Source: an uncultured Erysipelotrichaceae bacterium (lineage in GTDB: Bacteria > Bacillota_I > Bacilli_A > Erysipelotrichales > Erysipelotrichaceae). Taken from it: 50,077 nucleotides of DNA. The notes under the pieces are model-generated. The model was not told the DNA's origin, searched no databases, and saw nothing but the letters and a program-made list of their open reading frames with translations. Where the stretch lies: positions 1 through 50,077 of the forward strand of contig OMXA01000013.1 in assembly GCA_900314905.1 (NCBI GenBank), given 5' to 3'. Made by a program: the position numbers and the translations under genes. How positions within the stretch are numbered: the first letter of the stretch is position 1; each line of letters opens with the position of its first letter. Positions 25,295 through 47,155 of this stretch are shown here, piece by piece.

Positions 25295-25304
25295 TTGAGG
25301 ACGT

Positions 25305-25497
25305 GCTCCTGCCTGAGGGCGTTGAAGAGAGCTGCCGTCTGGTGAAAGGCAGTACGCAGAGGCAAGGGAGACATCACCTCATGAGCATTCGCATTCTTAC
25401 CGCGTTACGGGGAGAGTTCAAGAGGGCATGGCTGATGCCATGAACTAAGGTGGTACCGCGCTTTTGAGCGTCCTTAGAAGAGAAGGACGCTTTTCTT
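25305..25497 (+). promoter_or_regulatory. T-box riboswitch of ileS (isoleucine)
   Basis: The leader carries the T-box AAGGTGGTACCGCG (25447-25460). The terminator GCGTCCTT/AAGGACGC (25468-25490) with a TTTTCTT run comes next. Stem I has the usual AGAGAGCTGCC...GGTGAAAGGCAG pattern. An ATC triplet at 25373-25375 sits where the specifier is expected. Uncharged tRNA-Ile would pair with it, block the terminator and turn on ileS. Confidence 0.9.
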
Positions 25498-32452: not shown

Positions 32453-32910
32453 AGATCGGTATCATTTCAGATACTCACAATCTGCTTCGGAAAGAAGTTC
32501 TGGAAGAGCTGTCTTCCTGTCAGGTCATTCTTCATGGCGGTGACATTTCGAAGCCGGAGATTCTTCAAGAGCTTCAGAAGATTGCGCCGGTTTATGCAGT
32601 GAGGGGCAATAATGATGGCGATTGGGCTGCGGGAATGCCGGAGATTCTGAATCTGCAGATCGCCGGTCTTTCGATCTGCATGTGTCACAAGAAGAAAGAT
32701 CTTCCGCAGGATCTGAGCAATTCTGATCTGATTATCTATGGTCATTCTCATAAGTTTGAATTGTCTGAGAAGAAACATCAGATCTTTCTGAATCCTGGCA
32801 GCTGCGGACCGAGACGATTCACGCAGCCGATCACGATGGCGGTCGGCTTTCTGAAGAAAGGAAAGGTCCGGATCGAGAAGATCGAGATTCCTCATGAGGA
32901 GAAGAAATGA
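32437..32910 (+). CDS. YfcE/MJ0936-type metallophosphoesterase
   Basis: The 157-residue protein is a small calcineurin-fold phosphodiesterase. Metal-binding strings are GIISDTHN at residues 8-15, LHGGDIS, VRGNND, and the late GHSH and NPGS. This set is complete. Family members hydrolyse phosphodiesters in vitro, but cellular targets are unclear. The ATG at 32437 follows AAGGAAGG and lies inside the end of the preceding gene. The 3' end overlaps the next gene by ATGA. Confidence 0.9.
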   Translation: MAEELKIGIISDTHNLLRKEVLEELSSCQVILHGGDISKPEILQELQKIAPVYAVRGNNDGDWAAGMPEILNLQIAGLSICMCHKKKDLPQDLSNSDLIIYGHSHKFELSEKKHQIFLNPGSCGPRRFTQPITMAVGFLKKGKVRIEKIEIPHEEKK

Positions 32911-33692
32911 ACCGGAAAGATGAGCTGCTTCTGAAAGCAATGGCTCTGCTTGGCTCGCATGGTCCCGAGCCTGAGCAGGTCCTGCTGCAGAAATATCGGG
33001 AAGGGATTCTTCACTCCGTTCTCGAAACCGGAGAGGATCTCGATTATCTGCTCTTCTGCTGGCCGGAGTGCAAAGATCTGGAACGGGTGATTCTGCTGGC
33101 GTTTCAGGAGAATCAGGTGCTGGCAGATTGTTCTGCATTGCATTGTTCCGTGAGATCATTGCTGAAAGAGAGAAAAATCTATGATTTCTGCAGTGAGGAA
33201 TCTGACTGGATGTATCTGGAACATTACATTCTGTCTCAGATGTTCTTCCGCGATTGCCCTTATCCCCCTGACGGGACTCCTTCTGATCGGGAGGGAGAGG
33301 CGCTTCTGTTCTCGAATGCTTATGTAACGGAAACGATCAGAGAACATGGAGTATTCCGTTCCATGATGGAGATGATGAAGGAGGCTGTCTTGAGAAATAC
33401 GGAAGGCAGCACTTCGCTGTTTCAGGTGATTTCTCTGGATCCTGATATTGCGTGCTATGGACCGGACGCAAGCGAAGAGGAATATCACTATTCGATGGAC
33501 AAAGATGAACCTGCAAGACTGCGGAATGCGGAAATCATGAAGCGGATCGGATTCCTGCCGATTCAGCTGGAAGAGACAGATCCTCAGCCAGGAGAAGATG
33601 GCACGAAGATCTGGTTTGCGATATGCAGAGAAACCGATCGGGTGGTTGACTGCGACCCGGAACTTCTGAGGATACAGGGAGGAAATGCATGA
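32907..33692 (+). CDS. Unknown protein, 261 residues
   Basis: I do not recognise this family. The sequence is soluble and acidic, with no signal peptide or membrane helix and no clear catalytic motif. The first 90 residues look helical, with repeated acidic and hydrophobic steps. The C-terminal part (DGTKIWFAICRETDRVVDCDPE) looks like a small beta-rich segment. It is coupled at both ends by ATGA-type overlaps to the phosphodiesterase and the phosphatase, so it is surely translated. Its role may be tied to theirs. Confidence 0.8.
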   Translation: MNRKDELLLKAMALLGSHGPEPEQVLLQKYREGILHSVLETGEDLDYLLFCWPECKDLERVILLAFQENQVLADCSALHCSVRSLLKERKIYDFCSEESDWMYLEHYILSQMFFRDCPYPPDGTPSDREGEALLFSNAYVTETIREHGVFRSMMEMMKEAVLRNTEGSTSLFQVISLDPDIACYGPDASEEEYHYSMDKDEPARLRNAEIMKRIGFLPIQLEETDPQPGEDGTKIWFAICRETDRVVDCDPELLRIQGGNA

Positions 33693-34471
33693 TACTGGAT
33701 CAGGCGATGAGGCCTGAGATCAATTTCAGAGATCTCGGGGGATATCAGAGTAAAGATGGCAGGGTTCTGAAAAGCGGATGCTTCTATCGGTCTTCGAATC
33801 TATCCCGGTGGAATCAGTCAGAGCTGCAGGAGCTTGCACGTCTGAAGGTACATACGATTCTGGATCTCAGAACAGACTATGAGGTTTATGAAGATCCTGA
33901 TCCGATCCCTTCGGAGATGGAGTATTTCAGAGTAAGCGGAATGCGCGATGTGAATGATGCTGGAGTCGATTATTCTCCAGAAGGAATCCGCCGCATGGCT
34001 GCTGGAAATCAGAATCTGTCTGAGCATATGAAAGACCTTTACCTGAATATGATGTTTCGCAATCAGGCATTTGAGTTTCTCTGGATTCTTCTTCAGGAAG
34101 GAGGGCATCTTCCGCTGCTTTTCCATTGTGCAACCGGCAAGGACAGAACAGGCGCTCTGAGCTTTCTTCTGCTGATGGCGCTCGGAATCAGAGAACAGGA
34201 TCTGATGGAAGATTATCTTTATTCCAATGTGTCATTCCGGACGCGGATTGAACATGCCTTCCGGACTCATGAAGAAGATCTGAAGATTCATCCTTCTCTG
34301 AAGCATCAGCTGATGATGGAAAATGGCGTCGAAGAGACTATGGGCAGAGCGATGCTGGATAAGGTGAAAGCAGAGTACGCGGATCGCAGAGCGTTTTTTG
34401 AGGACCAATATGGAATTGCGGAAGAACAGCTGACTGACTTTCAAAATCGATTTCTGGATGCTAAGATGTAG
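33689..34471 (+). CDS. Tyrosine-protein phosphatase, Y_phosphatase3/LipA-like
   Basis: The 260-residue protein has the family start NFRDLGGYQSKDGR and the catalytic P-loop HCATGKDRTG near residue 150, where Cys and Arg form the CX5R active site. These enzymes dephosphorylate phosphotyrosine or phosphoinositides; some are secreted effectors, but this one has no signal peptide. GGGAGG precedes the ATG, which overlaps the upstream stop. yhfZ begins 14 nt after the stop. Confidence 0.9.
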   Translation: MILDQAMRPEINFRDLGGYQSKDGRVLKSGCFYRSSNLSRWNQSELQELARLKVHTILDLRTDYEVYEDPDPIPSEMEYFRVSGMRDVNDAGVDYSPEGIRRMAAGNQNLSEHMKDLYLNMMFRNQAFEFLWILLQEGGHLPLLFHCATGKDRTGALSFLLLMALGIREQDLMEDYLYSNVSFRTRIEHAFRTHEEDLKIHPSLKHQLMMENGVEETMGRAMLDKVKAEYADRRAFFEDQYGIAEEQLTDFQNRFLDAKM

Positions 34472-34485
34472 TCAGGCAGGTTGTT

Positions 34486-35409
34486 ATGGAATACTTCGAT
34501 AAATTGCTTTCCAAGAACGGGCAGGCCGCGATTGCGCTATCTCGGGTGTTTCTCTGCTATGAACCGGGAGAAAGAGTGCCGACCATCACGGAACTGAGTC
34601 AGAGGCTGAATATCGCCAGAGGGACGATCCAGAATGGAATGAGAACCCTGGAATCTTCAGATGCAATTACCCTTGAGAACAGGGGGCATCTCGGCTCATT
34701 TCTGAGGCAGAAAAATACGGTTCTCCTGCTGCAGATTATCGGAGTCAATACCATTGTCGGGGCAATGCCGCTTCCGTATTCCAAAAAATACGAAGGAATG
34801 GCTACCGGATTGATCACCAGCCTGGAAAATCAGTATGGCATTCCGGCTGCGCTTTCCTACATGCGCGGAGCAAAGAACCGCATCAGCATGGTGATGGAGA
34901 ATCGATATGACTTTGCGGTTGTATCAAAGTATGCAGCAGAGGAATATCAGAAAAAAGATCCGAATATGCAGATCCTGGTGGAATTCGGGAATGGTACCTA
35001 CTGCAGCTCGCATGTGATTATCTTTCATGACCCTCATGCTGAGAAGATCAGAGATGGAATGCGAATCGGCATTGATCGGTCTTCCATTGACCAGGAAAAT
35101 ATGGTCCGGCTTGCTTGCGGAGACAAGCAGGTCCATCTGGTCCCGGTAGAATATAATTCATTGCTGAAACGGGTAATCAGCGGGGAGATCGATGCAACGG
35201 TCTGGAACCTGGATGAGGTCAAGGATCGGATGGCAAAGATCAACTATCATAGAATCTCTGAAATCCATGATTCTGATACCAATGCGGCGATGATTGTGAA
35301 TGGAACCAGAGAGGAAATGGCTTGCATTCTGAAAAAAATGGTCAGCGTGGAAGATATCCTGGCAACCCAGAAAATGGTGGAAAACGGAACTCTGACCCCT
35401 AGCTACTGA
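34486..35409 (+). CDS. yhfZ: YhfZ-like transcription regulator
   Basis: The 307-residue protein has an N-terminal GntR-type winged helix (ELSQRLNIARGTIQNGMRTLES, split here as the recognition region, about residues 29-56). The C-terminal domain looks like a periplasmic-binding-type ligand sensor and includes IVGAMPLPYSKKYEG, as in E. coli YhfZ. It stands at the left edge of the yhf-like cluster, at the end of a different transcript. It is the best candidate to bind the inverted repeats at 35554 and 38048. No copy of that repeat lies in front of yhfZ itself. Confidence 0.85.
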   Translation: MEYFDKLLSKNGQAAIALSRVFLCYEPGERVPTITELSQRLNIARGTIQNGMRTLESSDAITLENRGHLGSFLRQKNTVLLLQIIGVNTIVGAMPLPYSKKYEGMATGLITSLENQYGIPAALSYMRGAKNRISMVMENRYDFAVVSKYAAEEYQKKDPNMQILVEFGNGTYCSSHVIIFHDPHAEKIRDGMRIGIDRSSIDQENMVRLACGDKQVHLVPVEYNSLLKRVISGEIDATVWNLDEVKDRMAKINYHRISEIHDSDTNAAMIVNGTREEMACILKKMVSVEDILATQKMVENGTLTPSY

Positions 35410-35422
35410 TCGATGTGATTGT

Positions 35423-35463
35423 AAGAATTCTTCTGAACAGGAAAGCAGAAGGATTCTTTTTTT
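35423..35463 (+). terminator. Terminator after yhfZ
   Basis: A 13-bp stem with one G-U pair (35423-35435 with 35446-35458) and a 10-nt loop, followed by a run of seven T. Confidence 0.85.
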
Positions 35464-35515
35464 CTGCTCTGAATTGGGCGGTGCCAGGAGTGAATTCTCT
35501 GGAAAATAATGAAAA

Positions 35516-35544
35516 TTGACGAATCTGCTGAACCGGCATATGAT
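35516..35544 (+). promoter_or_regulatory. yhfW promoter
   Basis: TTGACG (35516-35521), a 17-nt spacer and TATGAT (35539-35544), a near-consensus promoter that should start RNA near 35551. Confidence 0.75.
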
Positions 35545-35553
35545 AGCTATGAA

Positions 35554-35571
35554 AATACAAAATAATGTATT
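35554..35571 (+). promoter_or_regulatory. Inverted-repeat operator, AATACA-N6-TGTATT
   Basis: A perfect 6-bp inverted repeat with a 6-nt A/T spacer lies just after the expected transcription start. Almost the same sequence is found at the second promoter of the cluster (38048-38065). A repressor bound here would block early transcription. Confidence 0.7.
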
Positions 35572-35598
35572 CAATGATTTCTTAGAGTGGAGGTCAGT

Positions 35599-36834
35599 AT
35601 GAAGCAGAGATTCATCATTATTGTGCTGGACGGATTCGGTATCGGAGCAATGCCTGACGCTGCTGTGGTGAGACCAGGAGATGAGAAAGCAAATACGTTG
35701 CGCAGTATTCTGAAGGATCATCCTGATCTGAAACTGCCGACGCTGGAGAGACTCGGCCTGATGAACGCATATGGCAGCGAGAGCGAGTTCATGAAGTTTT
35801 CTCCGGATGCGAATTTCGGAAAGAGCGAGCTGATGCATTTCGGAGCGGATACCTTCATGGGACATCAGGAAATCATGGGTACTCTTCCTAAGAAGCCAAC
35901 GGTGGATCCTTTTCAGACACATGTAGATGCGGTGGAAAAGATTCTGAAAGATCATGGTCATAAGGTTGAGATCATCAATCATCAGGGCTTGCGCTATATT
36001 GTGGCAGATGATTATGTAACAGTTGCGGATAATCTCGAAGCAGATCTTGGCATGTGCTACAACGTCACAGCACCGCTTGACTTCATTTCCTTTGAGAAGG
36101 AATGCGAGATTGCAGAGCTGGTTCGCCAGGTAGTAACCGTGGGCAGAGTGATTGTGTTCGGCGGAACCGGAAACAGCATGCAGGATCTGTTCAATGCAGA
36201 GGAAATCCGGCAAGGCAGGTTCATCGGGATTGCAAGTGCAAAGTCCAGGAGCTATGAGCATGGATATCAGTGCAGACATCTCGGATATGGGGTGGATCAG
36301 AATGTCCAGGCTCCGACCATTCTGACCAGAGCGGGGATTCCGGTCACTCTGATCGGGAAGGTTGCCGATATTGTGGCAAATGATGGCGGCACAAGCATTT
36401 CCTGCGTGCCGACGCCGGAATGCATGCGCCTGACGATTGATGCGGTGAAAAAGATGGACCGCGGCTTCATCTGCACGAATGTCCAGGAAACAGACCTGGC
36501 AGGTCACTCTCAGGACAGCACCCGTTATAAAGAAGTGCTTGAACAGGCGGACGCCGGACTTGCAGAACTGCTGCCGCTGCTTGGATCAGACGACATTCTG
36601 ATTGTCCAGGCAGACCATGGCAATGATCCGGATATCGGCTCCAGCAGGCATACCAGAGAATGTGTTCCGCTTCTGATTTATCGGAAGGGATTGAAGAGAG
36701 CGCATATCGGAATCAGAAAGACGATGTCTGATAATGGTGCTACCTGCTGCGATTATTTCCATGCTCCGGCTCCGGAAAACGGAACTTCCTATCTGAATAT
36801 GATCGGCGGATATGCATCAGGTGAAGAATCATGA
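35599..36834 (+). CDS. yhfW: YhfW-like phosphopentomutase-family enzyme
   Basis: The 411-residue protein belongs to the alkaline phosphatase superfamily, close to phosphopentomutase DeoB. Metal and active-site strings seen are VLDGFGIGAMPDA (Asp11), MGHQEIMG, QADHGNDPD and HTRECVPLL. E. coli YhfW is a family member of unknown substrate. A C1-C5 type phosphate shift on a ribose-like sugar is plausible, but plain deoB function cannot be ruled out. The ATG at 35599 follows GGAGG. The 3' end overlaps the epimerase gene by ATGA. Confidence 0.85.
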   Translation: MKQRFIIIVLDGFGIGAMPDAAVVRPGDEKANTLRSILKDHPDLKLPTLERLGLMNAYGSESEFMKFSPDANFGKSELMHFGADTFMGHQEIMGTLPKKPTVDPFQTHVDAVEKILKDHGHKVEIINHQGLRYIVADDYVTVADNLEADLGMCYNVTAPLDFISFEKECEIAELVRQVVTVGRVIVFGGTGNSMQDLFNAEEIRQGRFIGIASAKSRSYEHGYQCRHLGYGVDQNVQAPTILTRAGIPVTLIGKVADIVANDGGTSISCVPTPECMRLTIDAVKKMDRGFICTNVQETDLAGHSQDSTRYKEVLEQADAGLAELLPLLGSDDILIVQADHGNDPDIGSSRHTRECVPLLIYRKGLKRAHIGIRKTMSDNGATCCDYFHAPAPENGTSYLNMIGGYASGEES

Positions 36835-37925
36835 AGATCAGCGATCTGAAGGTCTTTCTTCTTGATGTTCCTCTGAGAACTCCCTTTATCACTGCCCTTC
36901 GCAGGGTTGATGAGCTGACAGATGTGATCCTGGAGATGCAGACAGATACTGGCGCAGTCGGATATGGTGAAGCTCCGCCTACGAAAGCAATCACCGGCGA
37001 AACGCTGGAAAGCATCTGCACAGACCTGAATGGGCCGATCCGGAATGCGCTGACAGGCATGGAGATTGAAGACCTGCCCGCATGTTTCCGGGCGCTTGAT
37101 GCATGCATGGATCATCACACCAGCGCGAAAGCGTGTGCAGATATTGCATTATATGATCTGTACGGACAGCTGAAGCAGAAATCCATTGCTGAGATTCTCG
37201 GGAAGAGACGTGACGTGCTTGAGACTGATCTGACGATTTCCGTCAACGATCCGGAGACCATGGCTGAGGATGCCGTGAAAGGAGTCCATCGAGGATTCCG
37301 GACTCTGAAAGTAAAAGCTGGAATTGATCCGGAACTTGATACCCAGAGACTGACTGCCATCCGCAAAGCGGTCGGGAAAGATATTCTGATCCGGATTGAT
37401 GCAAATCAGGCCTGGACACCTGACCAGGCAGTTTCGATTCTGGAGGAGATGCAGGAAAAGGGGATCGGCCTGGAATTGGCGGAACAGCCTGTGAAAGCGG
37501 ATGACCTTGATGGCATGGCCTTTGTCACTGCACGATCGCCAATTCCGATTGCTGCAGATGAGTCCTGCTTTTCACCGGACCAGGCAGAGTATATTTTCCG
37601 CAATCACTGTGCCGATCTTGTGAATATCAAGCTGATGAAAACCGGCGGAATCCATCATGCACTTCAGATAACGGACCTGGCTGAGAAATATGGTGCTTCC
37701 TGCATGATCGGATGCATGCTTGAAGCAAAAGTGTCTGTGAATGCTGCGGTGCATCTTGCTAGCAGCAGAACATGCATTACCAAGATTGATCTTGATGGTC
37801 CTCTGCTCTTAGCAGAAGATCCTGTGCATGGAGGCAGCATCTTCAGAGAACCGAGGATTACGCTCAGCAATGCTCCGGGAGCTGGCATACGTAAAATCGA
37901 TGGGCTGCGTCTGCCTGGGTTCTGA
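36831..37925 (+). CDS. Dipeptide epimerase-like enolase-superfamily protein
   Basis: The 364-residue protein resembles L-Ala-D/L-Glu epimerase (YcjG/YkfB). Expected catalytic residues are all present: KVK (Lys160/Lys162), Asp190 in DANQAW, Glu218 in EQP, Asp243 in ADES, Lys267, and the late Asp320/Asp322 DxD in DLDGPLL, which in dipeptide epimerases holds the substrate amino group. It is coupled to yhfW by an ATGA overlap. The E. coli yhf operon has no such gene, so this is a cluster-specific addition. It hints at a peptide-like or amino-acid-like intermediate. Confidence 0.88.
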   Translation: MKISDLKVFLLDVPLRTPFITALRRVDELTDVILEMQTDTGAVGYGEAPPTKAITGETLESICTDLNGPIRNALTGMEIEDLPACFRALDACMDHHTSAKACADIALYDLYGQLKQKSIAEILGKRRDVLETDLTISVNDPETMAEDAVKGVHRGFRTLKVKAGIDPELDTQRLTAIRKAVGKDILIRIDANQAWTPDQAVSILEEMQEKGIGLELAEQPVKADDLDGMAFVTARSPIPIAADESCFSPDQAEYIFRNHCADLVNIKLMKTGGIHHALQITDLAEKYGASCMIGCMLEAKVSVNAAVHLASSRTCITKIDLDGPLLLAEDPVHGGSIFREPRITLSNAPGAGIRKIDGLRLPGF

Positions 37926-37930
37926 GAGTC

Positions 37931-37973
37931 CTTTCAGATTCTCGGGATTTCTGAAAGATAACAGGATTTTTTT
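37931..37973 (+). terminator. Weak terminator after the epimerase gene
   Basis: CTTTCAG pairs with CTGAAAG (37931-37937 with 37951-37957). A T7 run follows about 8 nt later (near 37967), so the hairpin is not ideally placed. Confidence 0.45.
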
Positions 37974-38014
37974 CGAAGCTTCGCGATTATTTGAAGAAAA
38001 ATTCTTCTTTGTTC

Positions 38015-38042
38015 TTGTTACTGTGCAGGATCTATGTATAAT
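38015..38042 (+). promoter_or_regulatory. Promoter of the zinc-ribbon/yhfY...yhfS run
   Basis: TTGTTA (38015-38020), a 16-nt spacer and a perfect TATAAT (38037-38042). Expected RNA start near 38049. Confidence 0.75.
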
Positions 38043-38047
38043 TTAAT

Positions 38048-38065
38048 TATACAGAAAAATGTATT
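38048..38065 (+). promoter_or_regulatory. Inverted-repeat operator, TATACA-N6-TGTATT
   Basis: ATACA-GAAAAA-TGTAT forms a 5-bp inverted repeat at the expected transcription start. It matches the site in front of yhfW in 11 of 12 arm bases and has the same spacing. This shared element probably puts both transcripts under one regulator. Confidence 0.7.
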
Positions 38066-38071
38066 TTGAAT

Positions 38072-38440
38072 ATGAAATGTGTAAGGTGCGGTACTGAGTG
38101 GCAGGCAGATGGCAAGCCTCATCGAATTGCAACCTGCCCGCATTGCCAGCAGATGATGACGCTGGATGAAGCAGCAGAAAAACGCGTGAAGCATTGCGGC
38201 GCGTTTCTGATTTTTGTGATTGCGACAGCGATGGGTTACGGGCTGTGGGACTGGTCAGAAAACGGAAAGATTCTGGTGATGTTCATTTCCATTACCGCAG
38301 CAATGATTCTCCTGAATTACATCAATGGTCTTGCTCTTCGCCTGGCGGCATGGCGAAAGCCTCTGACCTATCGGGCATTGACAAAGGAAGAGAGAGATCA
38401 GATTCTCCGGAAAAGAAGCACAGGGAGGAAAAAGAAATGA
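38072..38440 (+). CDS. Zinc-ribbon membrane protein, unknown function
   Basis: The 122-residue protein starts with MKCVRCG and has CPHC near residue 23, a CxxC...CxxC zinc ribbon. Two membrane helices follow (about residues 44-62 and 68-86), then a basic C-terminal tail ending GRKKK. I do not recognise the family, and E. coli yhf has no such gene. The start lies about 23 nt after the expected transcription start and has no clear ribosome site. The next gene overlaps by ATGA, and this is the first gene of the eight-gene run. Confidence 0.75.
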   Translation: MKCVRCGTEWQADGKPHRIATCPHCQQMMTLDEAAEKRVKHCGAFLIFVIATAMGYGLWDWSENGKILVMFISITAAMILLNYINGLALRLAAWRKPLTYRALTKEERDQILRKRSTGRKKK

Positions 38441-38832
38441 GCAGAACAGATTTTTCTGAAAGACTTCAGATGTATCGTGATGCCGGCATGATCAATGATC
38501 AGGACGTTCAAGATGTCAATAATGTCATACAGATGTTCAGAAACGAATATGGAGTAGAACTATGCGAAGAGAATGCGGATACATTCGTCGCACATCTGTG
38601 CATGGCATGCATGCGCAATACGACAGAAGAGGAGGTTCCTCCGCTGACTGAGGATAACATTGCAGAGCTTGCAGCGCTCCCGACGTATCAGAAGTCACTG
38701 GAGATTCTCGATAAGATGCAGGAAGTGATGGTGAATTCTCTGAGCAGCACAGAGAAGAACTATGTGCTTCTGCATCTGAACAATCTGATTCAGAAACTGA
38801 AAGACCTCGGGGAGTGGCCGGAAACAGCGTAA
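38437..38832 (+). CDS. yhfY: YhfY-like stand-alone PRD-domain protein
   Basis: The 131-residue protein is a single PTS-regulation domain. Both typical histidine positions can be seen, in FVAHLCMACMR and YVLLHLNNL. In antiterminators and activators these histidines are phosphorylated by the sugar PTS. It has no DNA- or RNA-binding domain of its own. GGGAGG lies before the ATG, which overlaps the upstream gene. E. coli YhfY is the matching member. It may connect the cluster to carbon supply, but that is inference. Confidence 0.8.
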   Translation: MSRTDFSERLQMYRDAGMINDQDVQDVNNVIQMFRNEYGVELCEENADTFVAHLCMACMRNTTEEEVPPLTEDNIAELAALPTYQKSLEILDKMQEVMVNSLSSTEKNYVLLHLNNLIQKLKDLGEWPETA

Positions 38833-38865
38833 GAATCTGATGACAAAGGAAAGGGAAAATAATCT

Positions 38866-40206
38866 ATGAATTCATTACTTGCAGAGCAAGCAGCAACGAT
38901 TGTTCAGAACTTCGATTTCCCGGTTGCGACCAGGGCAATCATTCTGATCGCGATCTCAGCATGGGCAAGTCTTCTTGCTCATAAAGGCATTTCAAACTTC
39001 AACGATGGTGCCCGCCCGGTATTCCCGGAATTCATTGAAGGACGGATGACTCGTCCGGAATTCGCGGCGGTTGTCACCGGCATGGGCGTCGGATGGGTCC
39101 TCGCCGGATTCACACAGTGGATCGGCACAGGTCTGATTGCTGCACATCTGATCCTGATTGCTACTGATATCATCGGTGCGTGGTCTCCGAACCGCATTGC
39201 TGCGATTCTGCTTGGCGGTGCATATGGTGCTCTGGCTGCCTTCGGCACCAACATGATCAACAATGCATTTGCTGCGCTGCCTTATAACTTCCTCAATGAT
39301 CTGACTCAGATCACGACGCCGGTGCTTCCGATTTTTGCTCTGTATCCTGCCATTGCCATTGCAAATCAGTTTGAGGCAAAGAAGGGACTGCAGACTGCGA
39401 TCTGGGAAGCTGTGATCTATGTCGCATGCTCTCTGATCGGCAAGCTCAAGATCGGCAGTGTCAGCATTTCTCTGTATCCGTATTCCTTTGCAATGCTGGC
39501 TGGCATGATTTTCCTGGTGGTCTATTCTGTCAAGGCAAGCAAGAATCAGGAAACGATCAATGACGAGGAACAGGAGAATATCTTCTCGAAGAATGCGGAG
39601 CGGATCAAGGCAAACTGGGTTTATCTCTGCATCCAGGGCGCTCTGAATGCACTTGGCATCCGTACGCTGGCAATGGCATATCAGCCGTATATCCTTGCTC
39701 CGTGTGTCATCGGCGGTGATTACAGTGCCTTCTATATTGCAATGGTCGGCGTGATTATCGCCTTTATTCCTCTGATTGTTTCTACTGCTCTTTCCACTGG
39801 CGTATATCAGGCAGTCGGTCTTACAACCTGCATGCTTGTCGGACGCCTTGCTCCTACCTGGTGGCTTGCACCGATCTTTGGATTCGCAGTTGAGTTCCTT
39901 GAGCTTCAGCTGCTCGGACTGCTTGGCAAATGGCTGTCCCGCTATCCGGAACTCTCCAGATCCGGCGATCATATCCGCAATGCTATGGTAGAGACATTGA
40001 ATCTGGCTCTGCTCTGCGGTTCGTTCCTGGCTGCGAATGCAACCTGGGGAGGCATCGGCATCATGATGGTCGGCGGTGCATATCTGTTGAACGAGATTCT
40101 CGGTCAGAAGATTCCGCGTACCGCAATCGGCCCGCTGTCTGCTGCCTGTGTAGGTATTCTGTATAATATCTTCATCGCATTCGGGTGGATCGTTCTGGCT
40201 GCCTGA
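38866..40206 (+). CDS. yhfT: YhfT-like membrane transport protein
   Basis: The 446-residue protein is highly hydrophobic, with roughly ten to twelve membrane helices, and matches the YhfT family of putative transporters. The sequence shows GRLAPTWWLAPIFGFAVEFLE in its second half and a cytoplasmic-looking charged loop near residue 230. AAAGGGAAAAT is upstream of the ATG. It is followed after 19 nt by yhfU, as in E. coli. It should bring in or move the pathway substrate. Confidence 0.85.
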   Translation: MNSLLAEQAATIVQNFDFPVATRAIILIAISAWASLLAHKGISNFNDGARPVFPEFIEGRMTRPEFAAVVTGMGVGWVLAGFTQWIGTGLIAAHLILIATDIIGAWSPNRIAAILLGGAYGALAAFGTNMINNAFAALPYNFLNDLTQITTPVLPIFALYPAIAIANQFEAKKGLQTAIWEAVIYVACSLIGKLKIGSVSISLYPYSFAMLAGMIFLVVYSVKASKNQETINDEEQENIFSKNAERIKANWVYLCIQGALNALGIRTLAMAYQPYILAPCVIGGDYSAFYIAMVGVIIAFIPLIVSTALSTGVYQAVGLTTCMLVGRLAPTWWLAPIFGFAVEFLELQLLGLLGKWLSRYPELSRSGDHIRNAMVETLNLALLCGSFLAANATWGGIGIMMVGGAYLLNEILGQKIPRTAIGPLSAACVGILYNIFIAFGWIVLAA

Positions 40207-40225
40207 TGCCTGAAAGGAGATTGTT

Positions 40226-40600
40226 ATGAAAATTGAATGCTGCGGATTATCCAGCAGGGAAACTGCAAATATCATCAGGGCAAAGTTTCCGGAAGTTGAA
40301 GTGCTTGAAGACCCTGATTCCATTGCTGCGCGGAAGGTCAAAAAGGGAGAGGTTGATTTCTATCTCGGTTCCTGCATGACTGGCGGAGGCGGATCGCTGG
40401 CTACTGCAATTGCAGTGCTTGGCTACGGGAACTGCCTTGTTGTCACAAGACAGGGAAACATGCCGAAGCCTGAGCAGATCCGGCATCTGATCTATGCTGG
40501 AAATCATAAGGCGTTCGGATATGTGCAATCACATACGGAGAAGGTTGTTCCGGTGATTGTACAGGCGCTCCTTGATAAGACATCCGGTAAGCCGGAATAA
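40226..40600 (+). CDS. yhfU: YhfU-like DUF2620 protein
   Basis: The 124-residue soluble protein belongs to DUF2620. It starts MKIECCGLSSRETAN and has the glycine-rich GSCMTGGGGSLATA in the middle. The early Cys-x-Gly-Leu-Ser-Ser arrangement recalls the cysteine loop of PTS IIB proteins, but I cannot show homology. It always seems to sit beside yhfT, so it may be a transporter subunit or carrier. AAAGGAG lies before the ATG. A hairpin follows before php. Confidence 0.85.
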   Translation: MKIECCGLSSRETANIIRAKFPEVEVLEDPDSIAARKVKKGEVDFYLGSCMTGGGGSLATAIAVLGYGNCLVVTRQGNMPKPEQIRHLIYAGNHKAFGYVQSHTEKVVPVIVQALLDKTSGKPE

Positions 40601-40614
40601 AAAGATTCGGCAGT

Positions 40615-40650
40615 AACGGCATCTGATGGCTTGTCCGGAAGATGCCGTTT
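40615..40650 (+). terminator. Intercistronic hairpin between yhfU and php
   Basis: A 10-bp perfect stem (40615-40624 with 40640-40649) with a 15-nt loop, followed by TGCCGTTTATT. It is too poor in T for a strong terminator and may trim or stabilise mRNA. Confidence 0.4.
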
Positions 40651-40680
40651 GCCGTTTATTGATACAGGAGGGATTAATTA

Positions 40681-41598
40681 ATGATTCGTACCGTTACAGG
40701 AGACATACCAGCAGAAGAACTGGGCTTGACGATGATGCATGAGCATTTCATTGTCAACCTGGATAAAGTACGCCATGATGGGTTCTCGCGGATTGATACG
40801 TGTGAAGAAGCGGAGCCTGAGATCCGGAAAATGATGGATCTCGGGGTTGAGGCTGCGGTGGAAGTTTCGACGATCGATCTGGACCGCGATGCTGCGAAGC
40901 TGAAGAAGATTTCAGAAGATACCGGCTTGAAGATCGTCTGCTCCACAGGGTATTACCTGCAGCCATTTCATCCTGCGTTCCTGAAAGATGCTTCTTCGGA
41001 TGAAATTGCAGAGATCTATGTGAAAGAGCTGACGGAAGGAATCGGAGATACAGGGGTTCGGGCAGGGATTATCGCAGAGATTGCCTCTTCTAAAGATGGC
41101 TTCACGGAAGAAGAGAGAAAATGCCTGATTGCGGCTGGAAGGGCTGCCGTCCGCACGGAATGCGCAGTTTCCACTCACACCGGACCGATTACAGCCCAGG
41201 AGACGGTTGATATTCTGCTTTCTGAAGGAATGGATCCGGATAAAGTTGTGATCGGACATCAGGACCTTATCGATGATCCGGAATATCATCGCAATCTTCT
41301 GAAGCGCGGTGTGAATATTGCGTTTGATACCTGCGGAAAATCAGCGTATATGCCGGATGAAAAGCGCGCTGCAAATGCAAAGATCATTGCCGAGGAGGGC
41401 TATGCGGATCATCTGGTATTCTCCAATGATGTTTCCCGTCGGACTTACTTCACTTCTTATCCGGGACAATGGGGATATACTGCTGTGATGAAGTCAGTCG
41501 TGCCGCTGATGAAAGAGGCAGGTATTCCGGAAGAAATCCTTCATAAATTTCTGACAGAGAATCCTGCCAGAATTCTGAATAATAAGAACTGGAAGTGA
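40681..41598 (+). CDS. php: Phosphotriesterase homology protein
   Basis: The 305-residue protein is an amidohydrolase-superfamily enzyme related to phosphotriesterase. Metal ligands are His20 and His22 in MMHEH, bridging Glu133 in IIAEIAS, His166 in STHTG, His193 in GHQD and Asp250 in SND. A glutamate in place of a carbamylated lysine is a known trait of E. coli Php, which has no natural substrate assigned. Lactonase or phosphodiesterase-like hydrolysis is plausible. AGGAGGG precedes the ATG. The stop is close to the yhfX start. Confidence 0.9.
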   Translation: MIRTVTGDIPAEELGLTMMHEHFIVNLDKVRHDGFSRIDTCEEAEPEIRKMMDLGVEAAVEVSTIDLDRDAAKLKKISEDTGLKIVCSTGYYLQPFHPAFLKDASSDEIAEIYVKELTEGIGDTGVRAGIIAEIASSKDGFTEEERKCLIAAGRAAVRTECAVSTHTGPITAQETVDILLSEGMDPDKVVIGHQDLIDDPEYHRNLLKRGVNIAFDTCGKSAYMPDEKRAANAKIIAEEGYADHLVFSNDVSRRTYFTSYPGQWGYTAVMKSVVPLMKEAGIPEEILHKFLTENPARILNNKNWK

Positions 41599-41603
41599 TC
41601 CGG

Positions 41604-42761
41604 ATGTTTCTGAACAAACTGAAAGAGAATAATCCGGAGCTTCTGGATTATGCATTCTATGCACATCAGAACGGACTGATTCTGCCGGATACCTATCTCC
41701 TTGACCTCGACGCGATCACGGATAATGCAAAGAAGATTCTGGAGGAAGCAAAGAGGAATCAGGTGCAGCTGTTCTTCATGCTGAAACAGATCGGAAGAAA
41801 TCCGCTTGTAGCCAAGCGCCTCATGGAGATCGGGTATCAAGGCGCGGTATGCGTCGATTTCATTGAGGCAATGACCATGATCCGCAATCAGATTCCGATC
41901 GGGAATGTCGGCCACCTGGTTCAGACGCCGAAGGCTGCGCTTCCGGAGATCCTCAGTGCTCATCCTTATGCGGTGACGGTATATTCACTCGAAAAGATCC
42001 GCGAGATCAATGCAGAAGCAGAAAAGCTGAACATGGTACAGCCCCTTCTGATCCGCATCACAGATGATGATAGTGACCTGTACAGCGGACAGATCGCCGG
42101 CTTCCATTCAGACCGTCTGGAAGATGTGCTGAAGGAAATCGATTCACTGGATCATGTATGCTTCGGAGGACTGACCGTCTTCCCTGCGCTGCTGTACAGT
42201 GCAGAACAGCATGCGATTGTTCCGACTGCAAATATGAAAGCGATGAATCGAGCAAGAGCGATAGCAGATGCACATGGACTGAAAGACTATCTGATTAATA
42301 TTCCAAGTGCGAACTGCGCTGCATCGATGAAGCTGGTTCATGAATTAGGCGGCAATAATGCAGAGCCTGGCCATGGCCTGACTGGCACTACTCCTCTGCA
42401 CGCTGAAAGCACACAGCCTGAACGCGTGGGATATGCGTATGTGACCGAAGTTTCTCATAACTATGAAGATCATGCCTATTGCTATGGGGGAGGACACTAC
42501 CGGAGAGGTCACCTCGCTTCAGCGCTGGTAGGAACTTCTTCAGAAGATGCGCAGATGCTTGCTGCCTCAGCTCCGGATGATGACTCCATCGACTATCATT
42601 TCGAGTTAAGCAGGAATGCAGCAGTCGGTGACACAGCGGTGATGTGCTTCCGTACTCAGATCTTTGTGACGAGAAGCCGGGTTGCTGTAGTGGAAGGATT
42701 ATCTTCAGGCAATCCGAGAATCATCGGAACTTATAACCATCTTGGAGAATCTGAAGACTGA
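41604..42761 (+). CDS. yhfX: YhfX-like PLP enzyme, alanine-racemase fold
   Basis: The 385-residue protein has the fold-III PLP barrel of alanine racemases. The likely PLP lysine is Lys61 in FFMLKQIGRNP. The phrase AEPGHGLTGTTP and the tail CFRTQIFVTRS match the YhfX group. No reaction has been firmly assigned to this group; racemisation or decarboxylation of an amino acid is possible. ATG 41604 gives the expected MFL start. A GTG at 41595, overlapping the php stop, is a real alternative. The amidase-like gene starts on the last base of the stop. Confidence 0.85.
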   Translation: MFLNKLKENNPELLDYAFYAHQNGLILPDTYLLDLDAITDNAKKILEEAKRNQVQLFFMLKQIGRNPLVAKRLMEIGYQGAVCVDFIEAMTMIRNQIPIGNVGHLVQTPKAALPEILSAHPYAVTVYSLEKIREINAEAEKLNMVQPLLIRITDDDSDLYSGQIAGFHSDRLEDVLKEIDSLDHVCFGGLTVFPALLYSAEQHAIVPTANMKAMNRARAIADAHGLKDYLINIPSANCAASMKLVHELGGNNAEPGHGLTGTTPLHAESTQPERVGYAYVTEVSHNYEDHAYCYGGGHYRRGHLASALVGTSSEDAQMLAASAPDDDSIDYHFELSRNAAVGDTAVMCFRTQIFVTRSRVAVVEGLSSGNPRIIGTYNHLGESED

Positions 42762-43735
42762 TGAAAGAGACATACGCACTCCAGCACCGGGTTGCACAGC
42801 TGAATCCCTATGGCTCCGTAGTCCGTGTGCTGGACCCTTCTCCGGATGCGATTCTGACAGGAATCAAGAATACTGCGTCGATTCCGAATTCGCTCATGCA
42901 TAAGCTCGAAAAATCCGGTTTCGGTCTTCATACCATTGATAAGAAATCTCAGCTGGCCGGCCGGGCAGTAGATACGCAGCTGATCAATCCGATTTCCGGA
43001 CATCTCATGTCCGGGTCCAGTTCCGGTACCGCAATTAATGTATTTGCGGGGATCAATGATCTTGGCATCGGAAATGATGGCGGCGGTTCTGTACTTGCCC
43101 CGGCGATTTCAGTGAATATTTACGGCTTTATTTCAAGACTGATTGAAAAAGACAGAGTGACGGGTCCCCTGAAGCCGAACACAGATGGAATGACAGTTCC
43201 TTCTTCGATCGGTTTTATGGCCAGGAAGCGTGACATTCTTCTGAAAGCTATTTCGTGCTCAATCGGGGCAGAGCCCGGAGACCATTGCGGAAGAGTTCTT
43301 TCAGATCGGAAGTATGACGGGCTTGATTCTGAAGTGATTTCAGTAATGGATCCGCTTGCGCCAAGAGCAGAGCTTGTCCCTTATCTGAAGGAACAGCTCT
43401 CCGGATGCGATGTGATGGCAGTTACAGAAGGACCTGTTGATCTTGAAGGCTTCGGTGATTCTCTGTTCGGACACTTTGATGAGCGGACCAGAGAGATTCA
43501 GAAAAAGTCCTGCAAGGGGTATGTCCGGGTCTGCAATATTGCTGGAGCATCTGCGCTTGCGCTTCCGCAGCAAGGGCTTGGAATGGCAGTGCTGCTGATG
43601 TGCGAGTCTGTTCCGGAAAAGATTGCATGCATGCTCAAGGCGGCGGAATCCTTTCCGGAAATACATGATGAGCTGATTGAACGTTATTTTCTGAACCTGA
43701 ACAATTATTTCCTGGATGAATATCAGATTGACTGA
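42761..43735 (+). CDS. Compact amidase-signature-like protein
   Basis: The 324-residue protein has a stretch like the amidase signature family: GSSSGTAINVF (near residues 85-95) and GNDGGGSVLAPA (near 104-115). An upstream Lys36 in GIKNTAS lies where the catalytic lysine is found. If real, these give the Lys-cis-Ser-Ser triad (Lys36, Ser86-88, Ser110). The protein is well short of a typical amidase (450 or more residues). It is absent from the E. coli yhf operon. Its start overlaps yhfX and its end nearly meets yhfS, so it belongs to the run. Its natural amide is unknown. Confidence 0.65.
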   Translation: MKETYALQHRVAQLNPYGSVVRVLDPSPDAILTGIKNTASIPNSLMHKLEKSGFGLHTIDKKSQLAGRAVDTQLINPISGHLMSGSSSGTAINVFAGINDLGIGNDGGGSVLAPAISVNIYGFISRLIEKDRVTGPLKPNTDGMTVPSSIGFMARKRDILLKAISCSIGAEPGDHCGRVLSDRKYDGLDSEVISVMDPLAPRAELVPYLKEQLSGCDVMAVTEGPVDLEGFGDSLFGHFDERTREIQKKSCKGYVRVCNIAGASALALPQQGLGMAVLLMCESVPEKIACMLKAAESFPEIHDELIERYFLNLNNYFLDEYQID

Positions 43736-43745
43736 GGGAGGCAAT

Positions 43746-44840
43746 ATGAAAACCTATCCGCTGGAAAGCATCAGCCTGAAAGAAGCAGAAGAAAAGCAAT
43801 TCCGTATGGTGGAATGCATTACCCATCATTTCACGGGAACAGAGAGCCTCTCACGAGGAGATCTAGGGGTCAATCAGCTGAATAACATGCCGATTACTAC
43901 CCGCAAGGCAGAACAGGCAATTGCAGAATTCTTTCATGCAGAAGACTGTATTCTGGTCAGGGGCAGCGGCACGAATGCGATTCGCTATGCGCTTGCCTCG
44001 GTCATCCATCCCGGCAGAAAGATTCTGGTTCATAAAGCACCGGTCTATTCCACTACGGCATCATCGTTTGAAATGTTCGGACTGATTCCTATTGAAGCAG
44101 ATTTCAATGATCTGAACTGCATTCATGAAGTCATGGAAGCAAATCCTGATATCGAGGCAGCACTGGTTCAGTATTCTCGTCAGAAACTGGATGATTCCTA
44201 TGATATGGCAGAAGTTCTGAAGGTGATCCGGGAGGAAAAGGATATTCCGATTGTCACGGACGATAACTATGCGGTCATGAAAGTTCACTCGATCGGGGCA
44301 GAGCTTGGAAGTGATCTTTCCTGTTTCTCAACGTTCAAGCTTCAGGGTCCGGAAGGAATCGGATGCATTGTCGGCCGTGAGAAATATATCCGCATCATCC
44401 GGAAGATGCATTATTCCGGCGGTTCACAGACACAGGGCCATGAGGCGATGGATGTCCTCAGAGGACTTGTCACTGCACCGGTTCTGCTGGCAGTTCAGGC
44501 AGAAAGCGATGAAGCAATCCTCAGACGTCTTCAGAATCATGAAGTTCCTGGAGTCAGAGATGCATTCATTGCGAATTCTCAGTCAAAGGTTCTGCTGGTG
44601 GAGTTCGAAAGACCGATCGCTGCTGCGGTTCTTAAGGAGGCAGAAAAGCTCGGAGCTCTTCCGAATCCGGTTGGCGCAGAGTCCAGGTATGAACTGGCTC
44701 CGATGTTCTATCGCTGCAGCGGGACGGTTCTGAAGAGTGATCCTTCGCTTGGCGAACGGATGATCCGGATCAATCCGAACAGAAGCGGGCCGGATACCGT
44801 GATCAGAATTCTGAAAGAAGCAGTATCAGCAGTGAAATAG
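43746..44840 (+). CDS. yhfS: YhfS-like PLP-dependent aminotransferase/lyase
   Basis: The 364-residue protein is a fold-I PLP enzyme of the class V/Cys-Met metabolism type, matching YhfS. The Schiff-base lysine is Lys198 in STFKLQGPEG, and the cofactor aspartate lies in VTDDNYAVMK. E. coli YhfS has no proven substrate. Together with YhfX, it means two PLP enzymes act in the pathway, which points to an amino-acid-like intermediate. GGGAGG lies before ATG 43746. A long terminator ends the run here. Confidence 0.88.
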   Translation: MKTYPLESISLKEAEEKQFRMVECITHHFTGTESLSRGDLGVNQLNNMPITTRKAEQAIAEFFHAEDCILVRGSGTNAIRYALASVIHPGRKILVHKAPVYSTTASSFEMFGLIPIEADFNDLNCIHEVMEANPDIEAALVQYSRQKLDDSYDMAEVLKVIREEKDIPIVTDDNYAVMKVHSIGAELGSDLSCFSTFKLQGPEGIGCIVGREKYIRIIRKMHYSGGSQTQGHEAMDVLRGLVTAPVLLAVQAESDEAILRRLQNHEVPGVRDAFIANSQSKVLLVEFERPIAAAVLKEAEKLGALPNPVGAESRYELAPMFYRCSGTVLKSDPSLGERMIRINPNRSGPDTVIRILKEAVSAVK

Positions 44841-44845
44841 GGAGG

Positions 44846-44886
44846 AAAGAGACTGTGGCAGTGCAGAACTGCTATGGTCTCTTTTC
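44846..44886 (+). terminator. Terminator of the yhf-like run
   Basis: A 17-bp stem, some pairs G-U (44846-44862 with 44868-44884), with a 5-nt loop and a short T run. Confidence 0.85.
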
Positions 44887-45058: not shown

Positions 45059-47155
45059 TCAGAGAGAGAACAGCATGTCTTCGTAGGTTGGAAGCTTGTA
45101 GTTCTCAGGTGTCGCGATGACTTCATACTGATCAATGAAAGAGCGAACTTCTTCCATTTCTGGGCAGATGTCATAGTACATCTTCTTGCCTGCTTCTTTG
45201 GTGAAGCCTGCTGCAGAAACTTCAGCGAAGTCTTTTTCGAGCTTCTCGGATGCCTGATAGGTATCATCGATGAGACTGCTGAGTTCAGCAGCTCTTGCCT
45301 TGAGGTAAGCCGGAGCAGCTTTGCCGGCAGCAGCGGCGGCGTCAGAATAGAACTTCAGATCTGCAGTCATTGCCGGAAGAACCTCTTTTCTCGTCATGGA
45401 GAGCAGGGTGCGGACTTCGATGCCGATCTGCTTGATGTACTGCTCACGATAGATCTCTTCGCGGGCTGCCAGTTCCTTCTCTGTATAGACGCCGAGGTCA
45501 GTCAGCATCTTCACAGTCTTCTTGTCTTCGAGCACTTCAATGGATTCGACGAAGGAACGGACGTTCGGGAGACCGCGGCGTTTCGCTTCCTTGACCCATT
45601 CAGCGGAATAGCCGTCGCCAGAGAAGAGAATGCGCTTATGATCATGAATGATGTTGCGGCAGATATCGAGTGCCTTTGCACGGACGTCCTGCAGATACTT
45701 GATGCCTTCCAGTTCCTCGGCAATCTCATTCAGAGATTCCGCCATGATGCTGTTGAGAACGATGTTCGGAACCGCTGCAGACATCGAGGAGCCAAGCATC
45801 CGGAATTCAAACTTGTTTCCGGTGAAGGCAACCGGAGAAGTGCGGTTGCGGTCGGTGTTGTCGTGCGGGATGTAAGACAGACCGCTGATCGGGTTGAACT
45901 CGGCGGGAGTCGCTTCACGGTTCTTGCTCTGGGAAGGATGCTCCATGTAGAGACCGTAGAGGATCTGCTCAATATACGAGCCGAGGTAAACGGAGATGAT
46001 TGCCGGCGGTGCTTCATTTGCACCAAGACGGTGATCGTTTCCGGCAGAGCTTGCACTCATGCGAAGCAGCAGCGCATTGTCATCCACTGCCCGGATGAAG
46101 GCACAGATGAAGGTCAGAAAGCGGATGTTCTCTGCTGGCTTTTCTCCCGGAGCGAACAGGTTTGAACCATTATCAGTCAGAATGGACCAGTTGTTATGCT
46201 TGCCGGATCCGTTGATGCCGTCAAACGGCTTTTCATAGAGCAGGCAGGCAAGGCCATGCTTTTCTGCAGTTTTGCGGAGAATATCCATGGTGAGCTGGTT
46301 ATCGTCAACTGCAGTGTTAGCCTCAGAGAAAACCGGTGCAAGCTCGAACTGGGACGGAGCAACTTCGTTATGCTCTGTCTTGGCATAGATGCCAAGCTTC
46401 CAGAGTTCCTTGTTCACATCCTTCATGAACTCTGCGACACGGGTAGGAATCGAGCCGAAGTAATGATCGCTGAGTTCCTGGCCTTTGCTTGCCGGAGCGC
46501 CGAACAATGTTCTGCCAGTCAGCCGGAGGTCCGGACGTTCTTCAAAGTACTTTCGATCAATCAGGAAGTATTCCTGTTCCAGACCTACATAAGGCTTGCA
46601 GGAGCGGACGTCTTTTTCGCCAAGCAGGTTCACGACTCTGGTTGAAGCATCGCTGAGCGCTTTGATGGATTTCAGCAGCGGATCTTTCTTGTCGAGCGAT
46701 TCGCCATTATAGGAAACAAATACGGTGGGAATGCAGAGAACTCCATCCTTGATGAAAGCTGGCGAAGTCACATCCCAGTAGGTATAGCCTCTTGCCTCAA
46801 AGGTTGCCCGCAGGCCTCCGCTTGGAAAGCTGGAAGCGTCAGGCTCGCCTTTGATCAGATTCTTGCCGGAGAAATGGGTGATCGGTTCGTGGTCAGGACC
46901 TGGTTCGACAAAGGCATCATGCTTTTCGGCAGTAGCGCCTGTCAGCGGCTGGAACCAGTGAGTATAATGGGTCGCTCCATTTTCGAGTGCCCAGCGCTTC
47001 ATGGCATGGGCAATAGAGTCTGCAGTCTGCCGGTCCAGTGTTCCTTCGCTGGCAACCGTTTTCTTCCAGGCGGTATATACCGGCTTTGGAAGACGCTCCT
47101 GCATCTGTTTTTCTCCGAATACCAGTGATCCGAATTCTTCAAACGGTGCTTCCAT
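45059..47155 (-). CDS. glnA: Glutamine synthetase type III
   Basis: GSIII makes glutamine from glutamate, ammonia and ATP. The 698-residue length sets it apart from GSI (about 445-470 residues). Seen are the N-terminal GSIII block FGSLVFGEKQMQERLP, HYTHWFQPLTG, the catalytic GSGKHNNWS, SSAGNDHRLGANEAPP and NRTSPVAFTGNKFEFR. GGGAGG precedes the ATG. GSIII proteins form double hexamers. The unusual class is found in Bacteroides, some clostridia and Erysipelotrichia. The promoter 30 nt upstream is a good sigma-A type. Confidence 0.96.
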   Translation of the reverse strand: MEAPFEEFGSLVFGEKQMQERLPKPVYTAWKKTVASEGTLDRQTADSIAHAMKRWALENGATHYTHWFQPLTGATAEKHDAFVEPGPDHEPITHFSGKNLIKGEPDASSFPSGGLRATFEARGYTYWDVTSPAFIKDGVLCIPTVFVSYNGESLDKKDPLLKSIKALSDASTRVVNLLGEKDVRSCKPYVGLEQEYFLIDRKYFEERPDLRLTGRTLFGAPASKGQELSDHYFGSIPTRVAEFMKDVNKELWKLGIYAKTEHNEVAPSQFELAPVFSEANTAVDDNQLTMDILRKTAEKHGLACLLYEKPFDGINGSGKHNNWSILTDNGSNLFAPGEKPAENIRFLTFICAFIRAVDDNALLLRMSASSAGNDHRLGANEAPPAIISVYLGSYIEQILYGLYMEHPSQSKNREATPAEFNPISGLSYIPHDNTDRNRTSPVAFTGNKFEFRMLGSSMSAAVPNIVLNSIMAESLNEIAEELEGIKYLQDVRAKALDICRNIIHDHKRILFSGDGYSAEWVKEAKRRGLPNVRSFVESIEVLEDKKTVKMLTDLGVYTEKELAAREEIYREQYIKQIGIEVRTLLSMTRKEVLPAMTADLKFYSDAAAAAGKAAPAYLKARAAELSSLIDDTYQASEKLEKDFAEVSAAGFTKEAGKKMYYDICPEMEEVRSFIDQYEVIATPENYKLPTYEDMLFSL

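Follow-up and report, generated by a model that had tools for sequence, protein, structure and literature searches.

A rearranged yhf gene cluster in an uncultured Erysipelotrichaceae bacterium and a predicted YhfZ operator ahead of its transcription units

The eight yhf/php genes of E. coli (yhfZ, Y, X, W, php, yhfU, T and S) form a neglected system, and we found the complete set together in a 50,077-nucleotide (nt) stretch of DNA, contig OMXA01000013.1 of an uncultured, gut-type Erysipelotrichaceae bacterium (hereafter the window, meaning the whole stretch analyzed). Between positions 34486 and 44840 they make up a genuine yhf cluster, rearranged in gene order, in the genome of a Gram-positive bacterium. 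The analysis provides three handles on the system: a predicted operator, which marks the Gram-positive regulon and suggests a counterpart in E. coli; an amidase-signature protein, which accompanies most sampled yhf clusters yet not that of E. coli; and the ancestry of YhfU (DUF2620). The predicted operator is the strongest new point, since it renders the regulon testable, in E. coli K-12 as well, and such a shared control site would be a concrete route to the role of the system. We give an even chance to the reading that these genes form a regulon, controlled by YhfZ, through which the cell takes up and breaks down a small compound that contains an amide and has an amino-acid part and a sugar-phosphate part.

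Survey of yhf loci

Gene content, palindrome distribution, conserved catalytic residues and YhfU ancestry were computed. Profile models built here were used to map 48 other yhf loci, taken from samples of relatives, of the phylum, of the class and of the family and from named records. YhfT was present in 41 of the 273 genomes of the family sample and in 13 of the 392 of the phylum sample, and a search for it among named genomes gave five loci, in Holdemania and other Erysipelotrichia. We removed near-copies (L095, L097, L099, L101 and L040, copies of L010, L007, L006, L009 and L008, respectively) and kept the near-identical pairs L026/L027, L082/L084, L091/L111 and L104/L105, so that the counts given below are not counts of independent events. 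The 38 loci called uncut exclude nine with yhf genes 300 nt or less from an end (L008, L010, L033, L083, L085, L105, L106, L107 and L110) and the lone yhfT of L037. Labels for neighboring genes that have no family call ("serine-hydrolase-like," "M42-type" and others) were given by eye.

A predicted YhfZ operator

A palindrome with the core ATACA-N6-TGTAT occurs twice in the window, against 0.03 copies expected. The first site (35551..35574 as a 24-mer profile site, core 35555-35570) lies ahead of yhfW and the adjoining epimerase gene, and the second (38045..38068, core 38049-38064) lies ahead of the main unit. Across the whole genome (2.14 Mb) the palindrome is found at three places, each just upstream of a yhf unit, the third being 57 nt upstream of a second yhfU-yhfT pair on contig 44. 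This second pair (G000:C44:7857-9563, - strand; locus L032) has no other yhf genes alongside and is outside the 49 loci, the window included, that were surveyed.

In a leave-one-out profile scan, the top site fell within a yhf leader at 36 of the 49 loci, where 6.0 were expected from the share of positions and column-permuted profiles gave 11.5 +/- 3.4 loci (maximum, 25 of 49), leave-one-out and column permutation lifting the circularity of the profile only in part. Training excluded the sites of L031 (inside yhfX) and L089, and, in the comparison by yhfZ given below, the high-scoring sites of L033 and L091 (29.5 and 33.9) were counted as outside the leader because stop-to-stop frames were used. 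Paired sites, both scoring at least 10 and lying 58 to 69 nt apart, were seen at 10 loci. A leader site scoring at least 20 was present at 29 of 39 loci with yhfZ but at only 1 of 7 without it (Fisher p 0.0047; the rows are related), where "without" means absent from the examined DNA stretch rather than from the whole genome and where L037, L105 and L110 are left out. Within one genus, all five loci without yhfZ in the examined stretch also lack the site, and the four that have yhfZ score at best 22.8, 23.5, 25.0 and 15.0.

In the window, yhfZ (34486..35409; this and all other genes of the cluster are on the + strand) encodes a GntR-type regulator scoring 367 bits against NF041241 (cut-off, 260) and 240 bits against PF14503. 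The distribution of the palindrome across loci fits control by this protein, and we propose, on correlational grounds, that YhfZ binds the predicted operator and represses the genes behind it. In E. coli K-12, half-sites at equal spacing, AATATTCA-N6-TGAATATT, form two predicted sites, both between genes (one in the yhfY-yhfX gap, one upstream of yhfZ), against 0.05 expected from a pattern that was drawn up only after its site had been seen; the half-site there contains ATTCA, not ATACA.

Transcription units of the cluster

The preliminary description of this DNA had the genes mostly overlapping and ending at one terminator. A strong intrinsic terminator does follow yhfS (44844..44886, + strand; -29.2 kcal/mol; z -7.12; 0 of 200 shuffles as good), but only 3 of the 10 junctions overlap (yhfW/epimerase by 4 nt, CxxC gene/yhfY by 4 nt and yhfX/amidase by 1 nt), a count that depends on the start codons assigned here. 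The 189 nt between yhfZ and yhfW hold a moderately supported terminator-like hairpin with a T run (35423..35458, + strand; z -1.67; 15 of 200 shuffles as good), and about 140 nt with a G+C content of 0.31 separate the epimerase gene from the CxxC gene. Because overlaps are few and because of these two gaps and the hairpin, several transcription units are likelier than one operon. Promoter-like matches at 35516-35544 and 38015-38042 each lie a few nucleotides upstream of a palindrome, but the region has 17 matches of this kind, which is close to chance (13.0 +/- 3.7). A single operon with a single terminator is unsupported, given the gaps, the hairpin after yhfZ and the internal palindromes. 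Co-regulation, which the same description had made a test of its proposal, is favored in silico only, by the same palindrome ahead of the yhfW-epimerase unit and of the main unit.

Reading frames and family-profile searches confirmed every gene that had been named between 34486 and 44840, from yhfZ to yhfS and including the epimerase, the CxxC membrane protein and the amidase-like gene. The main unit begins with a small protein that has CxxC pairs and membrane segments, as judged by eye (about 38072..38440). No family scored above its cut-off for it in profile searches, the zinc ribbon seen in it is likewise a call by eye, and in the profile map of yhf loci its gene was seen solely in clusters of the window type. 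It is followed by yhfY (38437..38832), whose PRD-like product scores 21.4 bits against PF00874, below the Pfam cut-off of 23.

An amidase-signature protein in most sampled yhf clusters

That the amidase would co-occur with yhf genes in other genomes had been named as a point on which the earlier proposal could fail, and the search bore it out: the gene is present in 31 of the 38 uncut multi-gene loci. The amidase is thus a regular yhf member outside E. coli. The window copy (42761..43735) matches the Pfam amidase domain PF01425 with 33.5 bits across just residues 76-125 of 324, and its profile matches solved amidases around both Ser motifs. The residues of the Ser-cisSer-Lys arrangement (Lys36, Ser86, Ser87 and Ser110) are kept in 34 of 34 other copies.

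Catalytic residues are also kept among copies of the other yhf enzymes. YhfX (41604..42761), a pyridoxal phosphate (PLP) enzyme of the alanine racemase fold (PF21279, 129 bits; solved structure 4KBX, 313 bits), has Lys61 in 43 of 43 other copies, and YhfS (43746..44840), a fold-type-I PLP enzyme (4J8L, 392 bits; PF22475, 144.5 bits), has Lys199 (numbering from 43743) in 47 of 47. Both 4KBX and 4J8L were deposited as uncharacterized proteins. The phosphotriesterase-family metallohydrolase Php (40681..41598; PF02126, 211 bits) keeps Glu133 and His22 in 52 of 52 other copies and its remaining four ligands in 51 of 52; it has Glu at the position where phosphotriesterases carry a carboxylated Lys. 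The phosphopentomutase-like YhfW (35599..36834) scores above the cut-off of the YhfW-type model NF009049 (571.7 versus 254 bits) but below that of the DeoB model (TIGR01696, 151 versus 341.2 bits). At its Thr85, which corresponds to the phosphorylated Thr of phosphopentomutase, the 40 other copies have Thr (33) or Ser (7).

YhfU is related to RpiB and accompanies YhfT

YhfU (40226..40600; PF10941, 100 bits) has a C-x-T-G-x-G loop, the Cys of which (Cys50 in the window) is kept in 48 of 48 copies. Comparison of the DUF2620 and RpiB profiles gave a probability of 83 and a score of 38.0 across 106 columns, whereas 60 column-shuffled RpiB profiles reached at most 16.8 and the best of ten unrelated locus families reached 24.9. 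The Asp-His pair near the N terminus of RpiB, which is invariant in the 11 RpiB-like proteins compared, is missing from YhfU. We therefore class YhfU as distantly related to this phosphosugar isomerase and not as RpiB itself. Searching solved structures with the YhfU profile gave a single match, 2ppw, at an E value of 0.5.

A less firm relationship links YhfU to the EF_0830 family (probability 58, score 30.8, shuffled maximum 21.0), whose own profile matches that of RpiB with a probability of 96. EF_0830-type clusters (TIGR03577/03579/03580/03583) resemble yhf clusters in that they encode a small protein related to RpiB next to membrane proteins, along with a metallohydrolase and a DgaE-like PLP lyase; they differ in that their membrane proteins have no similarity to YhfT, their enzymes are different ones and they have no yhf genes. 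Kinship of YhfT with the TIGR03579 and TIGR03580 membrane proteins was considered and rejected, the scores being no better than those of shuffled profiles. In many genomes weak matches to TIGR03577 (L044-L059) land on RpiB-like proteins of about 150 amino acids.

The predicted membrane transporter YhfT (38866..40206) matches PF10797 (371 bits) as its only Pfam family, no phosphotransferase system IIC family being among its Pfam matches, and a search of solved structures returned nothing at E values up to 1. Its gene adjoins yhfU in 47 of the 48 other loci, the exception being the lone yhfT of L037. This constant adjacency, together with the lone pair elsewhere in the genome, suggests that YhfU and YhfT may work jointly, possibly in transport.

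Gene order and known yhf clusters

The window has counterparts of all eight genes of the E. coli K-12 operon (b3376-b3383) in a different order, and the order varies among the 48 other loci too; the E. coli operon lacks the amidase, the epimerase and the CxxC membrane protein. The clusters of Holdemania filiformis and H. massiliensis (L006 and L007) are of the same type as that in the window, with the CxxC gene, yhfY, yhfT, yhfU, php, yhfX, the amidase gene and yhfS, most enzymes being 59 to 81% identical to those of the window, and they have the same palindrome in two copies 63 nt apart. Unlike the window, they have yhfW behind yhfS and no epimerase. A plasmid of Cetobacterium somerae (NZ_CP092520.1, MKD34_RS09765-RS09805) carries yhfZ, a PRD protein, DUF2620, YhfT, the amidase, php, yhfS, yhfX and yhfW in one run, but it has neither the epimerase nor the CxxC protein, yhfW is last and the operator is divergent.

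Among window-type relatives that have both genes, yhfW follows yhfS in 17 of 17; in the window it stands after yhfZ, with the epimerase gene. The window YhfW falls, at an unsettled position, in a clade of 17 rows (support, 100/99); the other rows are 14 window-type relatives and the congeners L089 and L090. A foreign origin of yhfW is therefore unsupported. In the YhfZ tree the window joins the same two congeners (100/99, with a bootstrap that had not settled); their clusters belong to a different type and, like the window, have a Y_phosphatase3 gene. Because YhfW and YhfZ group differently in the trees, the cluster looks like a mosaic.

The window has such a Y_phosphatase3 gene (33689..34471, + strand; PF13350, 171 bits), which ends 14 nt ahead of yhfZ. 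The family occurs in or near 4 of the 48 other loci (L088, L089, L090 and L093). We rejected it as a core yhf member, since only 5 of 49 loci have it, of which three come from a single genus, and since those five genomes carry 2 to 6 copies; we kept it as a possible accessory.

Among the surveyed yhf loci, the epimerase-like gene is seen in the window alone

The enolase-superfamily protein encoded downstream of yhfW (36831..37925) aligns with the Bacillus subtilis-type L-Ala-D/L-Glu epimerase 1JPM across residues 1-353 (299 bits) and carries R24, K160, K162, K267, D320 and D322, which correspond to the catalytic Lys residues and to the dipeptide-holding Arg and Asp-x-Asp motif of dipeptide epimerases. 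These residues align between the two enzymes. The window protein differs from the 1JPM type in its place in the predicted yhf regulon and in scoring 229.7 bits against the equivalog model NF041118, whose cut-off is 500; because of this score, it is filed as epimerase-like, and its activity is a prediction.

The expectation that the epimerase accompanies yhf genes in other genomes failed. The profile map did not show it at any of the other 48 yhf loci, and a direct search of 20 other YhfT-positive genomes or records gave no match at an E value of 1e-15 or less; we therefore rejected it as a general yhf member. Among 61 relatives, the query matched 7 other genomes at 1e-30 or less, and none of the 7 has a YhfT match; a phylum sample of 295 contained no further genome with an epimerase match at 1e-70 or less.

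These counts favor the alternative that the gene is a passenger, of a type used in muropeptide recycling, that landed beside yhfW in one lineage and acts outside the yhf pathway. Also in its favor are the nearest solved relative, 1JPM, and the seven homologues in congeners, which are 28 to 41% identical and of which six adjoin a serine-hydrolase-like gene. Two features nonetheless make expression together with the yhf genes probable: the 4-nt overlap with yhfW and the position downstream of the shared palindrome. We regard a passenger as an appreciable possibility, though short of an even one. By its distribution, the epimerase has been recruited locally, downstream of the predicted operator that the other units share, and belongs to the predicted YhfZ regulon in this genome only.

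Proposed pathway and alternatives

In the order of steps that we infer for a YhfZ-controlled uptake and breakdown regulon, YhfZ would occupy the palindrome at the start of three units (yhfW-epimerase; the main unit, whose eight genes run from the CxxC gene through yhfS; and the distant yhfU-yhfT pair) and would be released on binding the substrate or an intermediate. Import would be the task of YhfT, assisted by YhfU, its constant partner, and by the PRD-like YhfY. Two linkages, one an amide and the other an ester, a lactone or another amide, would be hydrolyzed by the amidase and Php. YhfX and YhfS would racemize the amino-acid part, which they would next cleave or deaminate, while YhfW would shift the phosphate on the sugar part for entry into central metabolism. 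The dipeptide-epimerase-type enzyme would have joined the regulon beside yhfW here, presumably to accept substrate of the other configuration. An uptake and catabolic route for an amino-acid- or peptide-like compound, as first proposed, stays plausible, with amide cleavage, PLP chemistry and a phosphosugar step predicted from the enzyme families.

The substrate class is inferred in part from neighboring genes. A NagB-type glucosamine-6-phosphate deaminase gene directly follows yhfW in two genera of one family (L029:1793-2515 and L030:17391-18113), and the gene after yhfW encodes Dak1 in L100, HPr in L094 and, in L036, an M28 peptidase; L092 has a gene similar to the last, assigned by eye. An aminopeptidase-like gene lies ahead of yhfZ in L009 (under curated cut-offs) and L010 (by eye). 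In L009, L102, L103, L104, L105 and L108, yhfW is followed by further copies of php (about 30% identical) and yhfS, one of each, the additional yhfS being longer at its N terminus by about 80 residues. These neighbors would agree with a compound having an amino-acid part and a sugar-phosphate part, possibly an amino sugar phosphate; none is decisive. L010 also has, directly after php, a tandem fusion of two YhfS domains in one frame that runs off the contig end (6833-8838).

Several observations weigh against the proposed regulon and its substrate. The substrate-hinting neighbors are few and lineage specific, and the amidase is not found in 7 of the 38 uncut loci (E. coli, Vibrio, L088, L090, L091, L092 and L111). 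As for the operator, the genome likewise has two places with the reversed control pattern, the sites used to train the profile lay near yhf genes, and permuted profiles also prefer A+T-rich leaders. Six yhfZ-less loci come mostly from a single genus, and L025 has a strong site though yhfZ is not in its DNA stretch. In the family designated f9, the divergent, weakly supported pattern TGTACA-N6-TGTACA has one exact match in each of two loci, with no significant excess; the Cetobacterium pattern (L041), TTTTCA-N6-TGAAAA, is tentative, divergent and weakly supported; and a profile scan of the Vibrio locus (L043) gave no site.

An unlikely alternative is that the cluster serves not to degrade a compound but to make or remodel one, for instance a component of the cell surface or an amino acid that carries a modification. 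Biosynthetic pathways, too, employ PLP enzymes and mutases, and the titles and opening parts of abstracts in the open-licence library searched give no role for the yhf genes, the E. coli operon included. However, nutrient use is the better fit for a cluster that combines hydrolases of two families with a predicted transporter, a PRD-like protein and a regulator of the ligand-responsive type, and family-profile searches found no ligase, ATP-grasp protein or transferase in the cluster. It is very improbable that yhfW and the epimerase gene owe their order to faulty assembly or binning: the genome is in 76 contigs (94.6% complete, 3.78% contamination), of which the window is one, and the order is seen in 0 of 17 window-type relatives with yhfS and yhfW, but the frames are intact, their G+C contents (0.504 and 0.512, with 0.496 for the window) are like those of the neighbors, the genes overlap by 4 nt and a matching palindrome lies upstream of the unit.

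A broader form of the nutrient-use reading is one that we hold only tentatively and think rather doubtful. In it, yhf would be an undescribed nutrient system of Bacillota, Fusobacteriota and Pseudomonadota, mostly with one YhfZ operator geometry and with YhfT in a new type of transporter whose obligate soluble partner, YhfU, derives from RpiB. It would split amide-linked conjugates of amino acids and sugar phosphates, with an amidase step that is not in E. coli K-12, and would here have been widened to the other stereoisomer by the recruited epimerase.

Neighboring features of the window

Upstream of yhfZ, genes for a metallophosphoesterase, a 261-amino-acid protein and Y_phosphatase3 (32437-34471), each overlapping by 4 nt, lead up to yhfZ, which may be expressed together with them. 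A T-box leader at 25282-25478 is borderline, at 93.4 bits against an Rfam cut-off of 93. Convergent to yhfS is a frame of 698 amino acids on the - strand (45059-47155), which by eye is a type III glutamine synthetase.

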